64,000 nt of DNA from the NCBI RefSeq assembly GCF_029691405.1, contig NZ_CP121467.1, forward strand, positions 434,001 to 498,000. Direction: 5' to 3'. The position numbers were made by a program, and so were the translations under genes. The notes beneath the pieces were generated by a model that saw only the letters and a list, made by a program, of their open reading frames with translations, did not search any database and had not been told where the DNA came from. Positions 7,661-44,194 of this stretch are shown piece by piece. This DNA is from Streptococcus sp. D7B5 (GTDB lineage: Bacteria > Bacillota > Bacilli > Lactobacillales > Streptococcaceae). Positions within the stretch are counted from its first letter, which is position 1. Every line of letters starts with the position of its first letter.

Positions 7661-7721
7661 GATTTTAGTATAGCATAAAGCTGGCTAATGTGCTATACTA
7701 GTAAGGTTGATTCACTCAACC

Positions 7722-7779
7722 CTTGGTGCTTAGCTTCTTTCACCAAGCATATTTTACGCGGGAAACCGCCAAAGGAGAA
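7722..7779 (+). promoter_or_regulatory. preQ1-II riboswitch
   Basis: The sequence from CTTGGTGCTTAGC to AAAGGAGAA matches the streptococcal preQ1-II (COG4708) aptamer as I know it. Stem CTTGGTG/CACCAAG (7723-7729 with 7740-7746) is followed by the ACGCGG...CCGC hairpin and the terminal AAAGGAG. The last element is the Shine-Dalgarno of queT, so ligand binding would hide the RBS and lower translation when preQ1 is abundant. A TATACT -10 box is just upstream (7693-7698). Confidence 0.93.
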
Positions 7780-7782
7780 AAC

Positions 7783-8295
7783 ATGAAAAAATTAACTGTT
7801 CGTGACATGGCAGACATCGCTATTGTTGCTGCTATTTATGTGGTTTTGACTATTACACCACCAATCAATGTTCTTAGTTTTGGGGCGTATCAGTTCCGTA
7901 TTTCAGAAATGTTGAATTTCTTGGCTTTTTACAACCCTAAATACATCATTGGTGTGACAATTGGATGTATGATTGCTAATTTATTTAGTAGTTTTGGCCT
8001 AATAGATGTCTTTGTCGGTGGAGGTTCTACCCTAGTTTTCCTTAGTCTAGGGGTATGGCTCTTTAGCAAGTATAAGAAAGACTATTTGTTCAATGGTTTG
8101 ATTCGAAAAGATCATTTCTTCTTTTCAATCCTCTTTTCTATTTCAATGATTACCATTGCAGCAGAACTTCATATCGTTGCTGAAGCTCCATTCTTCTTCA
8201 CTTGGTTTTCTACAGGGATTGGAGAGTTTGCATCACTTATCGTGGGAGCGATTTTGATTGGTAAACTGGGACAGCGAATCGATCTAACAAAATAA
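7783..8295 (+). CDS. queT: QueT-family queuosine precursor transporter
   Basis: 170 residues starting at the ATG just after the riboswitch RBS. An in-frame extension upstream lies inside the aptamer and is not real. The protein has about five membrane helices (VRDMADIAIVAAIYVVLTI, then FRISEMLNFLAFYNPKYIIG). It belongs to the QueT/QrtT family, thought to be the substrate-binding (S) component of an ECF-type importer for preQ1 or preQ0. Its control by a preQ1 riboswitch supports that substrate. It is monocistronic, with a terminator directly after the stop. Confidence 0.92.
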   Translation: MKKLTVRDMADIAIVAAIYVVLTITPPINVLSFGAYQFRISEMLNFLAFYNPKYIIGVTIGCMIANLFSSFGLIDVFVGGGSTLVFLSLGVWLFSKYKKDYLFNGLIRKDHFFFSILFSISMITIAAELHIVAEAPFFFTWFSTGIGEFASLIVGAILIGKLGQRIDLTK

Positions 8296-8400: not shown

Positions 8401-8473
8401 GCTGATTTAGCTCAGTTGGCAGAGCGCATCCATGGTAAGGATGAGGTCGCCGGTTCAATCCCGGCAATTAGCA
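8401..8473 (+). tRNA. tRNA-Thr (anticodon GGT)
   Basis: A full cloverleaf is readable. The acceptor GCTGATT/AATTAGC has one G-T pair, the D arm is GCTC/GAGC, the anticodon stem CATCC/GGATG has loop ATGGTAA giving anticodon GGT, and the T arm is GCCGG..TTCAATC..CCGGC. Discriminator A73 is followed by TGAT, so CCA is not encoded. It reads ACC/ACT codons. Confidence 0.95.
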
Positions 8474-8567: not shown

Positions 8568-8719
8568 CTGCGATGAGTCGATAGGTAGTCTTCGGACTGC
8601 TATTGAGCATAAGGAGGTCACAACGCAGGAGCGGACCTTGATGAGTTGTGTGAACCTGCTCATCACATGAAGATGCCTCTTAGTCCCTGGTCAATGACTA
8701 GGGATTTTTAATTTTCAGA
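8568..8719 (+). ncRNA. asd RNA motif (structured RNA upstream of asd)
   Basis: A structured segment of about 150 nt has its own promoter and ends in a terminator-like stem (CCCTGGTC / GACTAGGG then ATTTTTA at 8695-8719). ACCTGCG (8566-8572) pairs with CGCAGG at the middle of the element. A stable GTAGTCTTCGGACTGC hairpin and a GATGAG...CTCATC stem are also visible. Position and layout fit the asd RNA motif described for lactic acid bacteria upstream of aspartate-semialdehyde dehydrogenase. Whether it is a cis-regulator or a separate small RNA is not settled; the own promoter and terminator favour a separate transcript. asd has another -10 box (TATAAT, 8762-8767) downstream. Confidence 0.8.
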
Positions 8720-37096: not shown

Positions 37097-37125
37097 TTTA
37101 CAAGCTCTTATAAACATGATATAGT
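37097..37125 (+). promoter_or_regulatory. Promoter of the structured RNA upstream of the polyamine operon
   Basis: TTTACA (37097-37102), 17 bp, TATAGT (37120-37125). The predicted start is about 37131-37133. The preceding stretch 36903-37096 holds no gene that I can see. Confidence 0.75.
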
Positions 37126-37131
37126 TATAAG

Positions 37132-37458
37132 GCTTAGAAAATGAGATGATGTTTTCTAGCAAATATAAACCCGAGTAAAAAATGCCTACGGACAGGCAGG
37201 GTTGAATGCCGAAGCGTGGTTGAAAAGCCACATTATTGATAGGGTTAAAAGCCTACTTTTATAAGTTGATGTTAGGATATTTGTCCTAATTCATAAATTT
37301 TAGTGTGGTGAAAGCACACGTCATCTTGTGAAACGATCAATAAAGTACGTAATATTTGCTACTAGAGAGTTAGGAAACATCAGGAACAGACATACTCAAC
37401 AGAAACCAAAATAAACACGTCAGAAGATTGCAGAGCAGGTGAAAACCTGCTCTTTTTT
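37132..37458 (+). ncRNA. Structured non-coding RNA of unknown family upstream of speA
   Basis: About 325 nt with no reading frame but many stems: GCTTAGAAAA/TTTTCTAGC at the 5' end; AACCC(37168-37172)/GGGTT(37199-37203) enclosing TGCCT/AGGCA; GTGG/CCAC (37216-37231); TTAGGA/TCCTAA (37272-37289); GTGTG/CACAC (37303-37319). It ends in a strong terminator, GAGCAGGT-GAAA-ACCTGCTC-T6 (37433-37458), 47 bp before the decarboxylase start. It is either a stand-alone small RNA or a leader that stops transcription before the polyamine genes. I do not recognise the family: it is not tmRNA, RNase P RNA, a T-box or a standard lysine riboswitch. Confidence 0.65.
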
Positions 37459-37504: not shown

Positions 37505-38983
37505 ATGGTAAAGGAGTATGTCTTGAAGAAGTTAGATCAAAACCAAGCCCCAATTTATGAGGCCTTGGTCAAGCTACGCAAGAAAAGAATTGTCCCCTTT
37601 GATGTGCCAGGTCACAAGCGTGGACGAGGAAATCCAGAACTTGTCGAACTGTTAGGAGAAAAATGTGTTGGCATTGATGTCAATTCTATGAAACCCTTGG
37701 ATAATCTTGGTCATCCCATTTCGATTATTCGGGATGCGGAGGAATTAGCTGCGGATGCTTTTGGTGCAGCCCATGCCTTTCTCATGATTGGAGGTACAAC
37801 CTCATCAGTTCAAACCATGATTCTTTCCACCTGCAAGGCGGGAGATAAGATTATTCTTCCACGAAATGTCCACAAATCTGCTATCAATGCGTTGGTTCTA
37901 TGTGGTGCCATTCCCATCTATATCGAGATGAGTGTAGATCCCAAAATCGGCATCGCATTAGGACTTGAAAATGACCGTGTTGCCCAGGCAATTAAGGAGC
38001 ATCCAGATGCTAAAGCTATCCTAATCAACAATCCTACTTACTATGGGATTTGTTCGGATCTGAGAGGATTAACAGAGATGGCTCACGAAGTGGGCATGCT
38101 AGTTTTAGTGGATGAAGCTCATGGTGCGCATTTGCATTTTACAGATAAACTTCCAATTTCTGCTATGGATGCAGGTGCTGATATGGCGGCGGTCTCTATG
38201 CATAAGTCTGGTGGGAGTCTGACCCAAAGCTCCATTTTACTTATCGGGGAGCAGATGAATCCTGAATACGTTCGTCAGATTATCAACCTGACCCAGTCTA
38301 CATCAGCATCTTACCTGCTGATGGCAAGTCTCGATGTTTCTCGTAGAAACCTAGCCCTTCGTGGTAAAGAGTCCTTTGAGAAAGTTATTGAGTTATCTGA
38401 GTATGCTCGTCGTGAAATCAATGCCATCGGTGGCTACTACGCCTACTCAAAAGAGTTAATAGACGGTGTCTCGGTTTGTGATTTTGACGTGACTAAGTTA
38501 TCAGTCTACACTCAGGGGATTGGTTTAACAGGGATTGAAGTTTATGATCTCTTACGGGATGAATATGACATTCAGATCGAGTTTGGTGATATTGGCAATA
38601 TCTTAGCTTATATTTCCATTGGCGACCGCATCCAAGACATCGAGCGCTTAGTCGGTGCTTTGGCTGATATTAAGAGACTCTATTCTCGAGATGGGAAGGA
38701 CTTGATTGCTGGAGAATATATCCAGCCCGAGTTGGTGCTGTCTCCACAAGAAGCCTTCTATTCAGAAAGAAAAAGTTTAACCTTGGATGATTCTGTTGGA
38801 CAAGTCTGTGGGGAATTTGTCATGTGCTATCCTCCAGGGATACCAATCCTAGCACCAGGTGAACGGATTACACGAGAGATTGTGGATTATATACAATTCG
38901 CCAAGGAACGTGGTTGCTCCCTCCAAGGGACGGAAGATCCAGAAGTCAATCACATCAACATCATTGAGAGAAAGGAGAACTAG
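37505..38983 (+). CDS. speA: Orn/Lys/Arg decarboxylase, likely arginine decarboxylase of the polyamine operon
   Basis: 492 residues. VPGHKRGRG at the N-terminus, VDEAHGAHL and the PLP-binding Lys in SMHKSGGSLTQSS define the fold-type I basic amino acid decarboxylases (short, Bacillus SpeA-like form). The pneumococcal homologue is often labelled lysine decarboxylase (cad). Its place with aguA and aguB, which process agmatine, fits arginine as substrate, and published work on the pneumococcal gene points the same way as I recall. GAGGTG supports ATG 37505; a TTG six codons later also has AGGAG before it. The speE start abuts the stop. Confidence 0.88.
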   Translation: MVKEYVLKKLDQNQAPIYEALVKLRKKRIVPFDVPGHKRGRGNPELVELLGEKCVGIDVNSMKPLDNLGHPISIIRDAEELAADAFGAAHAFLMIGGTTSSVQTMILSTCKAGDKIILPRNVHKSAINALVLCGAIPIYIEMSVDPKIGIALGLENDRVAQAIKEHPDAKAILINNPTYYGICSDLRGLTEMAHEVGMLVLVDEAHGAHLHFTDKLPISAMDAGADMAAVSMHKSGGSLTQSSILLIGEQMNPEYVRQIINLTQSTSASYLLMASLDVSRRNLALRGKESFEKVIELSEYARREINAIGGYYAYSKELIDGVSVCDFDVTKLSVYTQGIGLTGIEVYDLLRDEYDIQIEFGDIGNILAYISIGDRIQDIERLVGALADIKRLYSRDGKDLIAGEYIQPELVLSPQEAFYSERKSLTLDDSVGQVCGEFVMCYPPGIPILAPGERITREIVDYIQFAKERGCSLQGTEDPEVNHINIIERKEN

Positions 38984-39844
38984 ATGGATTTATGGTTTTC
39001 TGAAGTTCATACTCCAGATGTGAAACTGTCCCTGAGAACAGCCAAGCAACTCTATGCTGGAAAAAGTGAGTGGCAGGATATTGAGGTATTAGATACACCA
39101 GCTTTTGGAAAGATATTGATCTTAAATGGCCATGTCTTGTTTTCAGATGCAGATGATTTTGTTTACAATGAAATGACCGTCCACGTACCCATGGCTGTCC
39201 ATCCGAATCCAAAGAAAGTATTGGTTATTGGGGGTGGTGACGGGGGTGTTGCCCAAGTATTAACACTCTATCCTGAACTGGAACAAATCGATATTGTGGA
39301 ACCGGATGAGATGTTGGTTGAAGTCTGTCGTGAGTATTTCCCAGACTTTGCTGCAGGGCTAGATGATCCTCGTGTTACCATTTACTACCAAAATGGGCTT
39401 CGTTTTTTACGAAACTGTGAGGATGATTACGATATCATTATCAACGATGCGACAGATCCATTTGGGCATACGGAAGGGCTTTTTACCAAGGAATTTTACG
39501 GGAACAGCTACAGAGCTTTGAAAGAAGATGGTATCATGATTTACCAGCATGGGAGTCCGTTTTTTGACGAGGATGAGTCAGCTTGCCGAAGCATGCACCG
39601 CAAGGTCAATCAAGCCTTTCCAATCAGCCGGGTCTATCAGGCCCATATCCCAACCAGTCCAGCGGGCTATTGGTTGTTTGGATTTGCATCGAAAAAATAC
39701 CACCCTGTCAAAGATTTTGACAAGGAAGGCTGGAAAAAACGCCAGCTTTTTACAGAATACTATACTGCAAACTTACATGTGGGAGCCTTTATGTTGCCTA
39801 AGTATGTTGAGGATATTTTAGAAGAAGAGGAAGGAAAAAAATGA
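38984..39844 (+). CDS. speE: Spermidine synthase
   Basis: 286 residues. LWFSEVHTPDVKLSLR opens the N-terminal beta domain; the aminopropyltransferase core has GGGDGG (VIGGGDGGVAQ), DIVEPDE and NDATDPFGH with the catalytic Asp. It would transfer aminopropyl from decarboxylated SAM to putrescine. No SAM decarboxylase is in the operon, so its donor must come from elsewhere or its reaction differs. It overlaps the next gene by 4 bp (ATGA). Confidence 0.93.
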   Translation: MDLWFSEVHTPDVKLSLRTAKQLYAGKSEWQDIEVLDTPAFGKILILNGHVLFSDADDFVYNEMTVHVPMAVHPNPKKVLVIGGGDGGVAQVLTLYPELEQIDIVEPDEMLVEVCREYFPDFAAGLDDPRVTIYYQNGLRFLRNCEDDYDIIINDATDPFGHTEGLFTKEFYGNSYRALKEDGIMIYQHGSPFFDEDESACRSMHRKVNQAFPISRVYQAHIPTSPAGYWLFGFASKKYHPVKDFDKEGWKKRQLFTEYYTANLHVGAFMLPKYVEDILEEEEGKK

Positions 39845-41100
39845 GTCGTTTATTAGTTATCGGATGTGGGGGCGTTGCCCAAGTTGCTATTTCAAAGATT
39901 TGCCAAGATAGCGAAACATTTACAGAGATTATGATTGCTAGTCGTACTAAGTCAAAATGTGATGACTTGAAAGCTAAATTAGAAGGCACAACAAGTACAA
40001 AGATTGAGACAGCTGCTCTTGATGCTGACAAGGTTCAAGAAGTGATTGCCTTGATTGAAAGCTACAAACCAGAAGCTGTTTTGAATGTAGCACTCCCATA
40101 TCAAGACTTGACTATTATGGACGCTTGTTTAGCAACAGGAGTCCACTATATTGACACAGCCAACTACGAAGCTGAGGACACAGAAGACCCTGAATGGCGT
40201 GCGATTTATGAAAAACGCTGCAAGGAGCTTGGTTTTACAGCTTACTTTGACTACTCATGGCAATGGGCTTATCAGGAAAAATTTAAAGAAGCAGGCTTGA
40301 CCGCTCTGCTTGGATCTGGTTTTGACCCAGGTGTGACCAGCGTCTTTTCTGCTTACGCACTTAAACACTATTTTGATGAAATCCACTATATCGACATTTT
40401 AGACTGTAATGGTGGTGACCACGGTTATCCATTTGCAACAAACTTTAACCCAGAAATCAATCTCCGCGAGGTTTCTGCGCCAGGTTCTTACTGGGAAGAT
40501 GGAAAATGGGTCGAAGTTGAAGCTATGTCTATCAAACGTGAGTATGATTTCCCACAAGTTGGACAGAAAGACATGTATCTCCTTCACCATGAAGAAATCG
40601 AATCACTGGCAAAAAATATTCCAGGCGTTAAACGGATTCGTTTCTTTATGACTTTTGGTCAATCCTATCTAACGCATATGAAATGCTTGGAAAACGTTGG
40701 TCTCCTTCGTACGGATGCTATTAACTTCAACGGACAAGAAATAGTGCCAATCCAATTCTTAAAAGCCTTGCTTCCAGACCCTGCAAGCCTTGGCCCACGC
40801 ACTGTTGGAAAAACCAATATCGGTTGTATCTTTACAGGTGTCAAAGACGGAGTTGAAAAGACCATCTACATCTACAATGTTTGCGACCATCAGGAATGTT
40901 ACGCTGAGGTTGGCTCCCAAGCTATTTCTTACACGACTGGAGTTCCAGCTATGATTGGAACAAAATTAGTTATGAACGGTACTTGGAAACAACCTGGAGT
41001 TTACAACCTTGAAGAGTTGGATCCAGATCCATTTATGGAAGCTTTGAATGAGTACGGCTTGCCTTGGGTTGTGGTTGAAAACCCTCAAATGGTGGACTAA
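39841..41100 (+). CDS. Carboxynorspermidine/carboxyspermidine dehydrogenase (saccharopine dehydrogenase family)
   Basis: 419 residues. A Rossmann nucleotide-binding start LLVIGCGGVAQVA and the saccharopine-dehydrogenase-like layout (LNVALPYQDLTIMDACLATG, GSGFDPGVTSVF) match carboxyspermidine dehydrogenases, which join a diamine to aspartate semialdehyde with NADPH. Its product is the substrate of NspC, encoded directly after it with a one-base overlap. It is frequently mislabelled saccharopine dehydrogenase/lys1; the context makes lysine breakdown unlikely. Confidence 0.9.
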   Translation: MSRLLVIGCGGVAQVAISKICQDSETFTEIMIASRTKSKCDDLKAKLEGTTSTKIETAALDADKVQEVIALIESYKPEAVLNVALPYQDLTIMDACLATGVHYIDTANYEAEDTEDPEWRAIYEKRCKELGFTAYFDYSWQWAYQEKFKEAGLTALLGSGFDPGVTSVFSAYALKHYFDEIHYIDILDCNGGDHGYPFATNFNPEINLREVSAPGSYWEDGKWVEVEAMSIKREYDFPQVGQKDMYLLHHEEIESLAKNIPGVKRIRFFMTFGQSYLTHMKCLENVGLLRTDAINFNGQEIVPIQFLKALLPDPASLGPRTVGKTNIGCIFTGVKDGVEKTIYIYNVCDHQECYAEVGSQAISYTTGVPAMIGTKLVMNGTWKQPGVYNLEELDPDPFMEALNEYGLPWVVVENPQMVD

Positions 41101-42227
41101 TGAAGTTAGAACAAGTACCCACACCAGCTTATGTCATTGACTTGGCCAAGTTAGAAGCCAACTGCCGTATTTTACAATATGTTCAGGAAGAAGCGGGCTG
41201 CAAGGTTTTACTGGCCCAGAAGGCTTATTCTCTCTACAAAACCTACCCCATGATTAGCCAGTATCTATCTGGTACAACGGCTAGTGGACTCTATGAGGCT
41301 AAACTAGCACGAGAAGAGTTTCCAGGGGAAGTCCATGTATTTGCACCTGCTTTCAAGGATGCAGACTTGGAGGAATTGCTGGAAATAACGGACCATATCG
41401 TCTTCAACTCAGAGAGACAGTTGCGTAAACATGGTCCTCGTTGCCGAGAGGCTGGTATCAGTGTCGGTTTGCGCCTCAACCCTCAATGTTCTACCCAAGG
41501 TGATCACGCGCTCTATGACCCTTGTGCTCCGGGATCTCGGTTTGGAGTTACTTTAGACAAGATACCGAGTGATTTGCTGGACTTAGTAGATGGTCTTCAT
41601 TTTCATACCCTTTGTGAGCAGGGGGCAGATGATTTAGAAACAACTTTGAAAGCTGTAGAAGCGCAGTTTGGACCTTATTTATATAAGGTCAAATGGCTCA
41701 ATATGGGTGGAGGACACCACATAACGAGAGAAGACTATGATGTGGATTTGCTGACTTCTGAAATCAAGCGTATCCGAGAAACTTACAATCTTGAAGTCTA
41801 TATCGAGCCGGGTGAAGCTATTGCGCTCAATGCGGGTTCTCTAGCAACTGAAGTATTGGACATTGTCGAAAACGGTATGGATATTTTGGTTTTAGATGCC
41901 TCCGCGACCTGCCATATGCCAGATGTACTTGAAATGCCCTATCGTCCACCTTTGAGAAATGGATTTGAACCGCAGGAAAAAGCCCATACCTATAGACTTT
42001 CTTCCAATACCTGTCTGACGGGTGATGTGATTGGTGATTATAGTTTTGAAAATCCAGTCCAAATCGGTGATAGACTTTACTTTGAAGACATGGCAATCTA
42101 CTCCTTTGTCAAAAATAATACCTTTAACGGTATTGGCTTGCCAAGTCTCTATCTTATGGACGAGCAGGGTGACTGCAGCTTAGTCAAAGCCTTTGGCTAT
42201 CAAGACTTTAAAGGGAGATTATCATGA
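41100..42227 (+). CDS. nspC: Carboxynorspermidine/carboxyspermidine decarboxylase
   Basis: 375 residues of an alanine-racemase-fold (fold III) PLP decarboxylase. The Lys in LLAQKAYS is the expected PLP anchor; [20 protein letters not shown] and the C-terminal SSNTCLTGD with the catalytic Cys are typical. It decarboxylates carboxyspermidine to spermidine, completing the SAM-independent route. It overlaps both neighbours by 1-4 bp, so it is strictly co-translated. Confidence 0.93.
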
Positions 42228-43309
42228 TAGAAACTCCGAAAAAAGCAGGCTATCGTATGCCAGCAGAGTACGAACCCCATCATGGCACCCTCATGATATG
42301 GCCGACTCGACCAGGTTCATGGCCTTTTCAAGGAAAGGCTGCTAAAAGAGCATTTACTCAGATTATCAAGACCATAGCAGAAGTGGAAAGAGTCTATCTT
42401 TTGGTGGAGCAGGACCATCTATCTGAAGCTCAATCCTATCTTGGAGACAAGGTTGTTTATTTAGATATTCCTACTAATGATGCCTGGGCGCGTGATACTG
42501 GGCCAACCATTCTCGTCAATGAAAAAAGAGAAAAGTTGGCAGTCGATTGGTCTTTTAATGCCTGGGGTGGTACAGTCGATGGCCTCTACCAAGATTATGA
42601 AGATGATGACCAAGTAGCCAGTCGTTTTGCTGAGGCATTGGAAATGCCTGTTTACGATGCCAAACCTTTTGTACTGGAAGGCGGGGCAATCCAAAGCGAT
42701 GGTCAAGGGACCATTCTTGTGACTGAAAGTTGCCTACTAAGCGCTGGTCGCAATCCTCATCTCAGTAAAGAGGAAATCGAAAACACCTTATTAGAGAGCC
42801 TTGGCGCTGAAAAAGTTATCTGGCTGCCTTATGGTATTTATCAGGACGAAACCAATGAACACGTTGACAATGTTGCCGCTTTCGTTGGTCCTGCAGAACT
42901 TGTCTTGGCTTGGACAGATGACCAGAACGATCCCCAGTATGCTATGTCTGTAGCTGATTTAGCTCTTTTAGAGAAGGAAACGGATGCAAAAGGTCGTCCA
43001 TTCACTATTCATAAATTGCCAATCCCAGCGCTTCATCAAGTTGTAACCGAAGATGATTTGCCAGGCTACATCTATGAAGAAGGGGAAGAAGAGCGTTATG
43101 CAGGTGAACGTCTTGCAGCTTCCTATGTCAATTTTTATATTGCCAACAAGTCTGTCTTAGTGCCCCAGTTTGAGGATGTAAACGACCAAGTGGCCCTAGA
43201 TATCCTCAGCAAGTGTTTCCCAGACCGTAAAGTTGTCGGAATTCCAGCCAGAGATATTCTATTAGGTGGTGGCAATATCCACTGTATCACCCAACAAATC
43301 CCAGAATAG
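42224..43309 (+). CDS. aguA: Agmatine deiminase
   Basis: 361 residues. [50 protein letters not shown] and the C-terminal catalytic Cys in [13 protein letters not shown] are the guanidine-modifying enzyme signatures. It hydrolyses agmatine to N-carbamoylputrescine and ammonia. It overlaps nspC by 4 bp, and aguB follows 9 bp later. Confidence 0.96.
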
Positions 43310-43318
43310 GAGAAAAAG

Positions 43319-44194
43319 ATGAGAAATGTTAGAGTTGCAGCAATCCAGATGCAATGTGCTAAGGATGTAGCAACAAATATCCAAACAGCGGAACGTCTAG
43401 TACGTCAAGCTACGGAACAAGGCGCACAAATCATCCTCTTACCCGAGTTGTTTGAACGCCCCTATTTCTGTCAGGAACGCCAGTATGACTACTACCAATA
43501 TGCTCAGTCAGTGACAGAAAATACCGCCATCCAGCATTTTAAAGTGATTGCTAAGGAACTACAGGTTGTTCTGCCGATTAGTTTCTACGAAAAAGATGGC
43601 AATGTCTTGTATAACTCTATTGCCGTTATTGATGCAGATGGAGACATGCTGGGCGTTTATCGAAAGACCCACATACCAGATGACCATTATTATCAAGAAA
43701 AGTTTTATTTTACGCCTGGTAACACTGGTTTCAAGGTCTGGGATACTCGCTACGCTAAGATTGGGATTGGCATCTGTTGGGATCAATGGTTCCCTGAAAC
43801 AGCGCGCTGTCTTGCGTTGAATGGGGCAGAATTGCTCTTTTACCCAACCGCTATCGGTTCAGAGCCTATCTTAGATACGGATAGTTGTGGTCACTGGCAA
43901 CGTACCATGCAAGGGCACGCAGCAGCAAATATTGTCCCAGTTATTGCAGCCAATCGTTACGGTTTGGAAGAAGTCACTCCTAGTGAGGAAAATGGTGGAC
44001 AAAGTTCCAGTCTTGACTTCTACGGTTCCTCCTTTATGACGGATGAAACAGGAGCTATTTTAGAGAAAGCTGAAAGACAAGGTGAAGCTGTTCTGTTAGC
44101 CACTTATGACCTGGATAAGGGAGCAAGTGAACGCCTCAACTGGGGACTGTTTCGTGATAGGAGACCCGAAATGTACCAACGAATTACGAACTAG
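43319..44194 (+). CDS. aguB: N-carbamoylputrescine amidohydrolase
   Basis: 291 residues of the nitrilase superfamily. The catalytic Glu is in LLPELFERPYF, the Lys in YRKTHIPDD and the Cys in GICWDQWFPE. It hydrolyses N-carbamoylputrescine to putrescine, CO2 and ammonia, the step after AguA. Last gene of the polyamine operon; a hairpin region follows. Confidence 0.96.
   Translation: MRNVRVAAIQMQCAKDVATNIQTAERLVRQATEQGAQIILLPELFERPYFCQERQYDYYQYAQSVTENTAIQHFKVIAKELQVVLPISFYEKDGNVLYNSIAVIDADGDMLGVYRKTHIPDDHYYQEKFYFTPGNTGFKVWDTRYAKIGIGICWDQWFPETARCLALNGAELLFYPTAIGSEPILDTDSCGHWQRTMQGHAAANIVPVIAANRYGLEEVTPSEENGGQSSSLDFYGSSFMTDETGAILEKAERQGEAVLLATYDLDKGASERLNWGLFRDRRPEMYQRITN

Follow-up and report, generated by a model that had tools for sequence, protein, structure and literature searches.

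The polyamine operon of Streptococcus sp. D7B5 is preceded by a structured RNA of about 327 nucleotides (nts) that is its 5′ untranslated leader and that, judged by comparative analysis, is probably a polyamine riboswitch, most likely for spermidine, switching the operon OFF by transcription termination. Related leaders before carboxyspermidine and SpeD/SpeE operons across the Bacillota suggest, with rather less assurance, a new and widespread class of spermidine riboswitch unrelated to SAM-I. Positions are those of the window, that is, the whole 64,000-nt stretch of DNA that was analyzed, and the elements of the locus are as follows.

37097-37125, + strand: sigma-70 promoter, TTTACA-17 nt-TATAGT, 10/12 consensus, TG before the -10 element, kept in streptococcal orthologs
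37132-37458, + strand: leader RNA, homolog of SN20/srn235/F59/Spd_sr49, putative sensor core plus terminator, about 327 nts
37167-37212, + strand: match to RF02440 (SpF59_sRNA), cmscan 28.5 bits (gathering score 37.2), E = 0.0035
37432-37458, + strand: intrinsic terminator AGAGCAGGTGAAAACCTGCTCTTTTTT before speA, about -15 kcal/mol
37510-38983, + strand: speA, SP_0916-type arginine decarboxylase, including its Shine-Dalgarno sequence (SD) AAAGGAG at 37510-37516
38984-39844, + strand: speE
39841-41100, + strand: carboxynorspermidine synthase (CASDH)
41100-42227, + strand: nspC
42224-43309, + strand: aguA
43319-44194, + strand: aguB

A preliminary description of the region, made from the sequence, had reported a structured RNA of about 325 nts with a near-consensus promoter, a two-tier stem, no reading frame and a strong terminator 47 bp before speA, and nearly all of this holds. 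Promoter-like sites are not enriched in the region (4 vs. 4.6 in shuffles); the site at 37097-37125, however, is conserved in relatives. From it we infer a transcription start at ~37132, which fits the published 327-nt length of srn235/M7. The leader (329 nts folded) reaches -88.7 kcal/mol compared to -65.2 ± 5.4 for dinucleotide shuffles (z = -4.39; 0/100), and no open reading frame (ORF) of at least 60 amino acids was found inside it. The terminator, composed of AGAGCAGGTG-AAAACCTGCTCT-TTTTT, ends 46 bp, rather than 47, before the ATG at 37505. Since the SD lies downstream of this ATG, speA probably starts at TTG 37523 instead; its orthologs begin just past the counterpart of the SD. The window speA and CASDH score under their NCBIfam cut-offs, and the name speA comes from the pneumococcal ortholog, SP_0916, which is an arginine decarboxylase and prefers arginine (PMC7990898, a review).

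The same RNA has been encountered before in the pneumococcus, under several names. In the gap between SP0915 and SP0916 of strain TIGR4, the SN20 transcript was mapped to 869478-869791 (PMC2887815) and found again as F59 (PMC3395615), and a merged entry, M7 (srn235/F59/Spd_sr49), spans 869478-869804 (PMC12323649), its 327 nts being exactly the length of 37132-37458. Pneumococcal lists treat SN20/srn235/F59 as a small RNA (sRNA), and an FMN-switch-like motif was once guessed for it (PMC2887815); no description of the RNA as a riboswitch was found in the open-access literature. The current annotation implies an independent, trans-acting sRNA that merely adjoins speA. A discrete transcript of ~320 nts with its own promoter and terminator agrees with that annotation, as does the lung fitness of 0.05 for Tn-seq insertions in srn235/SN20 (PMC3395615), although such insertions may be polar on speA. 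The preliminary description had seen no known family here and had suggested an Rfam/Infernal search. Within the region, the search returned only the sub-threshold RF02440 match (28.5 vs. 37.2 bits), with no other family at its gathering threshold and none credible at E ≤ 10. No known riboswitch class in Rfam was matched at the thresholds used. The judgment that no family fits needs amending, given the RF02440 match and the known pneumococcal transcript. Elsewhere in the window, a preQ1-II riboswitch and a MarS (asd) sRNA, at 7689-7785 and 8568-8710, lie above Rfam thresholds, with a tRNA-Thr gene (8401-8473) nearby.

Comparison of the leader with its relatives resolves a conserved core of ~200 nts, defined by covariance models, which is followed on its 3′ side by a linker and then the terminator. 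From 5′ to 3′, it consists of these elements, together with a hairpin, P0, at its upstream edge.

37133-37159, + strand: P0 hairpin CTTAGAAAA...TTTTCTAG, overlapping the P1 5′ strand, by inspection
37157-37166, + strand: P1 5′ strand TAGCAAATAT, pairing with 37352-37361
37168-37203, + strand: P2/P2b two-tier stem, AACCC/GGGTT and TGCCT/AGGCA, enclosing the near-invariant loop ACGGAC
37203-37214, + strand: TGAATGCCGAAG, holding the near-invariant AATGCCGA, mostly unpaired
37216-37231, + strand: P3 hairpin GTGGTTGAAAAGCCAC, two-sided changes in 4/5 pairs
37233-37240 / 37336-37343, + strand: P4 long-range helix TTATTGAT / ATCAATAA, 99% of cells paired, almost invariant
37240-37255, + strand: P4a hairpin TAGGGTTAAAAGCCTA, two pairs changing on both sides
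37257-37270 / 37320-37333, + strand: P5 helix TTTTATAAGTTGAT / GTCATCTTGTGAAA, containing P5a and P5b
37272-37289, + strand: P5a hairpin TTAGGATATTTGTCCTAA, variable, elsewhere replaced by a short GGTT..AACC loop
37303-37319, + strand: P5b hairpin GTGTGGTGAAAGCACAC, 5/5 pairs with two-sided changes in the wide alignment
37352-37361, + strand: P1 3′ strand ATATTTGCTA, pairing with 37157-37166

Support for this secondary structure comes from two alignments of different character. In a MAFFT alignment of 15 sequences (A3), on which the structure was drawn by hand, 97.6% of cells are paired while slid versions of the structure reach 34-47%, and 39 cells have changed on both sides compared to 12.1 in shuffles (0/500). 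The covariance-model alignment (48 members, 43 distinct), which is fitted to the structure and so leans toward the model, gives 96.5% paired cells with 34-48% for slid structures, and 105 cells changed on both sides vs. 31.2 in shuffles (0/500); the covariance analysis that the preliminary description had suggested thus finds helices that do covary. Most of the covariation sits in P3 and P5b, and P4 and P5, being nearly invariant, are by themselves little informative. The register of P4a is ambiguous in mitis-type sequences. The closing helix P1 lies outside the covariance models and was judged by strand swapping: its own strands pair at -11.7 kcal/mol and strands swapped between sequences at -9.2 kcal/mol (permutation p < 5e-5), with L257, whose anchor was misplaced in this test, read separately. 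Indeed, the helix is built from quite different sequences, AGCAAATAT/ATATTTGCT in the window, GAACTAC/GTAGTTC in L254, CAAGAATT/AATTCTTG in L255 and AGCAAT/ATTGCT in L256. The two-tier stem, P2, was judged by inspection, because MAFFT misaligns it between groups; its AACCC/GGGTT tier is exchanged in relatives for GACC/GGTC, CCCC/GGGG, AGAC/GTCT (L256) and GGACC/GGTCC (L252). Likewise by inspection, P0 is kept in most streptococci, and GGAAAG..CTTTCC occupies the equivalent place in other genera. Taken together, the alignments indicate that the leader carries a conserved, covarying, aptamer-like structure of the kind a riboswitch calls for.

Two further elements were noted around this core. A GAGU just after P4 (L217-L236, L249-L261) can pair with a conserved ACUC (in GACUCUG) past the P1 3′ strand (P1-3′). 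This predicted pairing would leave P1-3′ inside a loop, and it represents a pseudoknot or else takes the place of P1. The Bacilli leaders L217-L236 commonly carry a long hairpin with a variable top, GATATAY...RTATATC, in the stretch from P1-3′ to the terminator; it has no clear counterpart among streptococci.

The upstream edge of the structure also bears on ribosome-mediated attenuation through a leader peptide, for which a 10-codon ORF, MMFSSKYKPE at 37146-37178, would be the natural candidate. This ORF overlaps P0 and P1, which explains its sequence; it has no good SD, and in our reading of the alignments it is not conserved, other streptococci and other genera having it displaced or lacking it altogether. 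A leader-peptide mechanism is thus very improbable.

Among streptococci, the RNA closely tracks the gene behind it. BLAST finds it in 62 of 147 streptococcal genomes, and a covariance model of 188 positions built from streptococcal copies only (R1) gives the same number; speA is present in 61, and 60 genomes carry both, leaving two with the RNA only and one with speA only (Fisher p about 1e-37, phylogeny ignored). Wherever speA adjoins, it follows the RNA in the same orientation, whereas the gene on the upstream side of the RNA differs between genomes. Over nine divergent streptococci, identity to the window averages 0.77 for the core and 0.87 for the terminator but drops to 0.24 ahead of the promoter and 0.19 from terminator to SD. 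The exceptions are instructive. One RNA-only genome (G014) has a contig end at the locus. The other (G109, locus L044) has an intact RNA but no longer the operon behind it, whose place is taken by an IS200-like transposase ORF and the tmRNA region. Retention of the RNA without speA is what an independent sRNA would predict, but the G109 copy is 98.9% identical to that of an intact relative (L043 in G013), so that the operon was probably lost recently. The speA-only genome (G025, locus L063) has a diverged speA-speE-agmatinase-CASDH operon, its speA 63% identical, without the RNA. In G120 (L037), speA is truncated and the RNA has lost a portion of P5/P5b; the two seem to have decayed together, contrary to expectation for an sRNA acting in trans. 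In three further genomes (L010, L016 and L017 in G098, G108 and G066), the speA matches are incomplete or in two pieces and the RNA is 94-99% identical; frameshifts or an insertion are possible.

Beyond Streptococcus, R1 finds no match across 79 other Lactobacillales genera, but it does match nine other Bacilli genera at full length, with 73-85 bits and E 1e-17 to 1e-14. A joint core model of 139 positions from which P2 was excluded (R2) extends the family by 11 genera beyond class Bacilli, with E as low as 1e-30. L262, a further match with R2 E 0.04, was counted as a weak member because it is correctly placed before speD-speA. The best R1/R2 E-values in other Bacilli genera reach 1e-35. In total, ~21 other Bacillota genera carry the RNA, 12 of them outside class Bacilli including the genus of L262. 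One R1 match (L235, E 0.2) had no polyamine genes nearby and gave nothing with R2, and was rejected as false. A degenerate pattern scan of genome contigs returned mostly chance hits, 2 of 80 re-scored loci, both streptococcal, being real by R2.

The genes behind these distant copies argue for regulation in cis. With L235 excluded, all 33 non-streptococcal loci examined have a spermidine-biosynthesis operon directly behind the RNA in the same orientation, so that the position of the RNA is not independent of the neighboring gene. These operons begin in three different ways, with CASDH-nspC (21 loci, 18 in Bacilli and 3 outside), with speA (6) or with speD (6), and take the forms CASDH-nspC, speA-speE-(speB)-CASDH and speD-speA-speE-speB-CASDH. 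The locus counts overstate independence, since many Bacilli members are close relatives and a single operon arrangement is common to 18 of the 19 loci from this class. At representative loci, NCBIfam identified SpeD (TIGR03331, 400 bits), agmatinase, a CASDH homolog and nspC; the remaining speD calls rest on a common N-terminal sequence. Within class Bacilli outside Streptococcus, RNA-bearing genomes have an nspC 58-61% identical to that of the window, and genomes with an nspC of ≤57% identity are absent among the RNA matches. A first gene that varies within a pathway that stays constant is as expected of a cis-regulator, not of a neighboring sRNA gene, and the best explanation of these comparisons is that the RNA belongs to a large cis-regulatory class before spermidine operons across the Bacillota. 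Set against this and against the co-occurrence with speA across Streptococcus, the independent sRNA becomes improbable. The preliminary description had left open an attenuator or an independent sRNA, and it is the cis-acting attenuator that these loci, the terminators and the co-evolution of the terminator arm described below strongly favor.

The distant loci also clarify the standing of RF02440. The window copy falls below its gathering score, but most relatives lie above it: L044 scores 39.8 bits with cmscan, and 22 of 25 reliable non-streptococcal loci score 40-76 bits, comprising 12/12 reliable Bacilli loci (L235 excluded) and 10/13 reliable loci outside the class. Since most non-streptococcal loci pass, the two are the same family, and since R1 in turn finds the RF02440-positive Bacilli loci at full length (E 1e-14 to 1e-17), homology extends beyond the 54 nts of the Rfam model. 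Whereas RF02440 ("ldcC RNA", type Gene; sRNA) models those 54 nts, the conserved unit here is ~200 nts plus a terminator, lying in cis ahead of spermidine operons. On these model scores, the window RNA is a divergent member of RF02440, which is itself only a 54-nt fragment.

A terminator is found between core and first gene in nearly every leader scored. The exceptions, where the terminator finder gave no result, are three streptococcal leaders and the weak L262; two of the three show a stem and T-run by eye, and the third, L045, without a T-run, lies near a contig end. When upstream sequence was scanned without bias for the segment that pairs best with the terminator 5′ arm, most non-streptococcal genera gave the P5 3′ strand (P5-3′, ACUUGUG). 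Across 21 representatives, a reduced set in which some come from one genus, own pairs of terminator arm and P5-3′ reach -11.6 kcal/mol and swapped pairs -10.0 kcal/mol (permutation p = 2e-4), and outside Bacilli the values are -11.9 and -9.2 kcal/mol (p < 5e-5). Individually, 19 of the 21 beat shuffled arms at p < 0.05, L231 and L260 failing. For L257-L259, a first scan with a shorter arm chose another segment; a longer L257 arm pairs well with P5-3′. By this measure, the terminator 5′ arm has co-evolved with P5-3′ outside Streptococcus, as for an expression platform and against expectation for an sRNA acting in trans. Because P5-3′ cannot pair with both the P5 5′ strand and the terminator arm, the folded core should favor termination.

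In Streptococcus itself, neither candidate pairing beats shuffled arms convincingly, with p about 0.03-0.15 for P1-3′ in mitis-type leaders and about 0.04-0.1 for P5-3′ in four others. The complementarity is nonetheless suggestive of P1-3′ (UUUGCU with AGCAGG) as the partner of the terminator arm in mitis-type leaders and of P5-3′ in some others. P1-3′ was also considered as a universal antiterminator and was rejected, as it fits only mitis-type streptococci and a few Bacilli, and the scan favors P5-3′ in most other genera.

These features suggest how the leader would operate. Abundant spermidine, or a close polyamine, would by binding directly stabilize the P1-P5b core, the downstream terminator would form freely, and transcription would stop after ~327 nts; the terminated leader would then be the stable "sRNA" of the pneumococcus. 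At low ligand levels, the core would open and free a strand to capture the terminator 5′ arm, so that polymerase reads through into speA, CASDH or speD; this strand would be P5-3′ in most genera and might be P1-3′ in mitis-type streptococci. Polyamine control of this leader is plausible, also in light of a potABCD polyamine-importer mutant with low intracellular polyamines, in which speA and speE rose 16.9-fold and 14.4-fold by qRT-PCR, a rise absent from the RNA-seq of the same study (PMC8540371).

Conservation by itself cannot separate a metabolite from a protein ligand. The comparative evidence for cis-acting attenuation would equally accommodate a polyamine- or nucleotide-responsive RNA-binding protein, without direct metabolite binding, and the large invariant unpaired stretches could be its site. 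However, no regulator gene was noticed among the neighbors examined, and the conservation of ~200 nts with several junctions is, in our judgment, more aptamer-like than an antiterminator-protein site, making protein control unlikely. Only slightly less unlikely is a riboswitch for another ligand, such as putrescine, agmatine, carboxyspermidine, spermine or a cation; the operons span arginine through agmatine and putrescine to spermidine, and several intermediates could serve. Yet 21 of the 33 loci are directly followed only by CASDH-nspC and others have speD/speE, and spermidine is the product expected to be common to the CASDH-nspC and speD/speE steps. It is as the expected shared product of CASDH/nspC-only, speA-first and speD-first operons that we infer spermidine to be the preferred ligand, in keeping with the SAM-I-type polyamine riboswitch, where spermidine is the OFF ligand (PMC10853860).

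Should the spermidine reading be right, this large RNA with its covarying helices, found ahead of spermidine operons of ~22 Bacillota genera, would constitute a widespread polyamine riboswitch, and a pneumococcal sRNA with a virulence phenotype would be recast as a cis-regulator of speA, a gene whose deletion is reported to reduce capsule. RF02440 calls for correction in both extent and type: a "small RNA" fragment in the database is probably part of a large sensor that turns off polyamine synthesis once the product is abundant.

Claims of polyamine riboswitches long lacked convincing proof. The one accepted spermidine riboswitch is a variant of SAM-I, with 13 examples from Oceanobacillus, Bacillus, Trichococcus and others (PMC10853860). 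Like the leader described here, it precedes polyamine genes (speB, speD, speE and ldcC), and it exerts end-product OFF control over them by premature transcription termination (PMC10853860), as is proposed for the present leader; unlike it, the present leader has a different and larger fold in place of four stems, and a much wider set of genera. The SAM-I family (RF00162) had no match in the window at E ≤ 10, nor in L249, L217, L252 or L257 at E ≤ 1. The leader would therefore work like the SAM-I-type spermidine riboswitch without being a member of that class. Large transcription-terminating riboswitches in general have an aptamer closed by P1 and exchange strands with a terminator, and the leader resembles them in its candidate P1-closed aptamer, its candidate strand exchange with the terminator and the biosynthetic operon that lies downstream.
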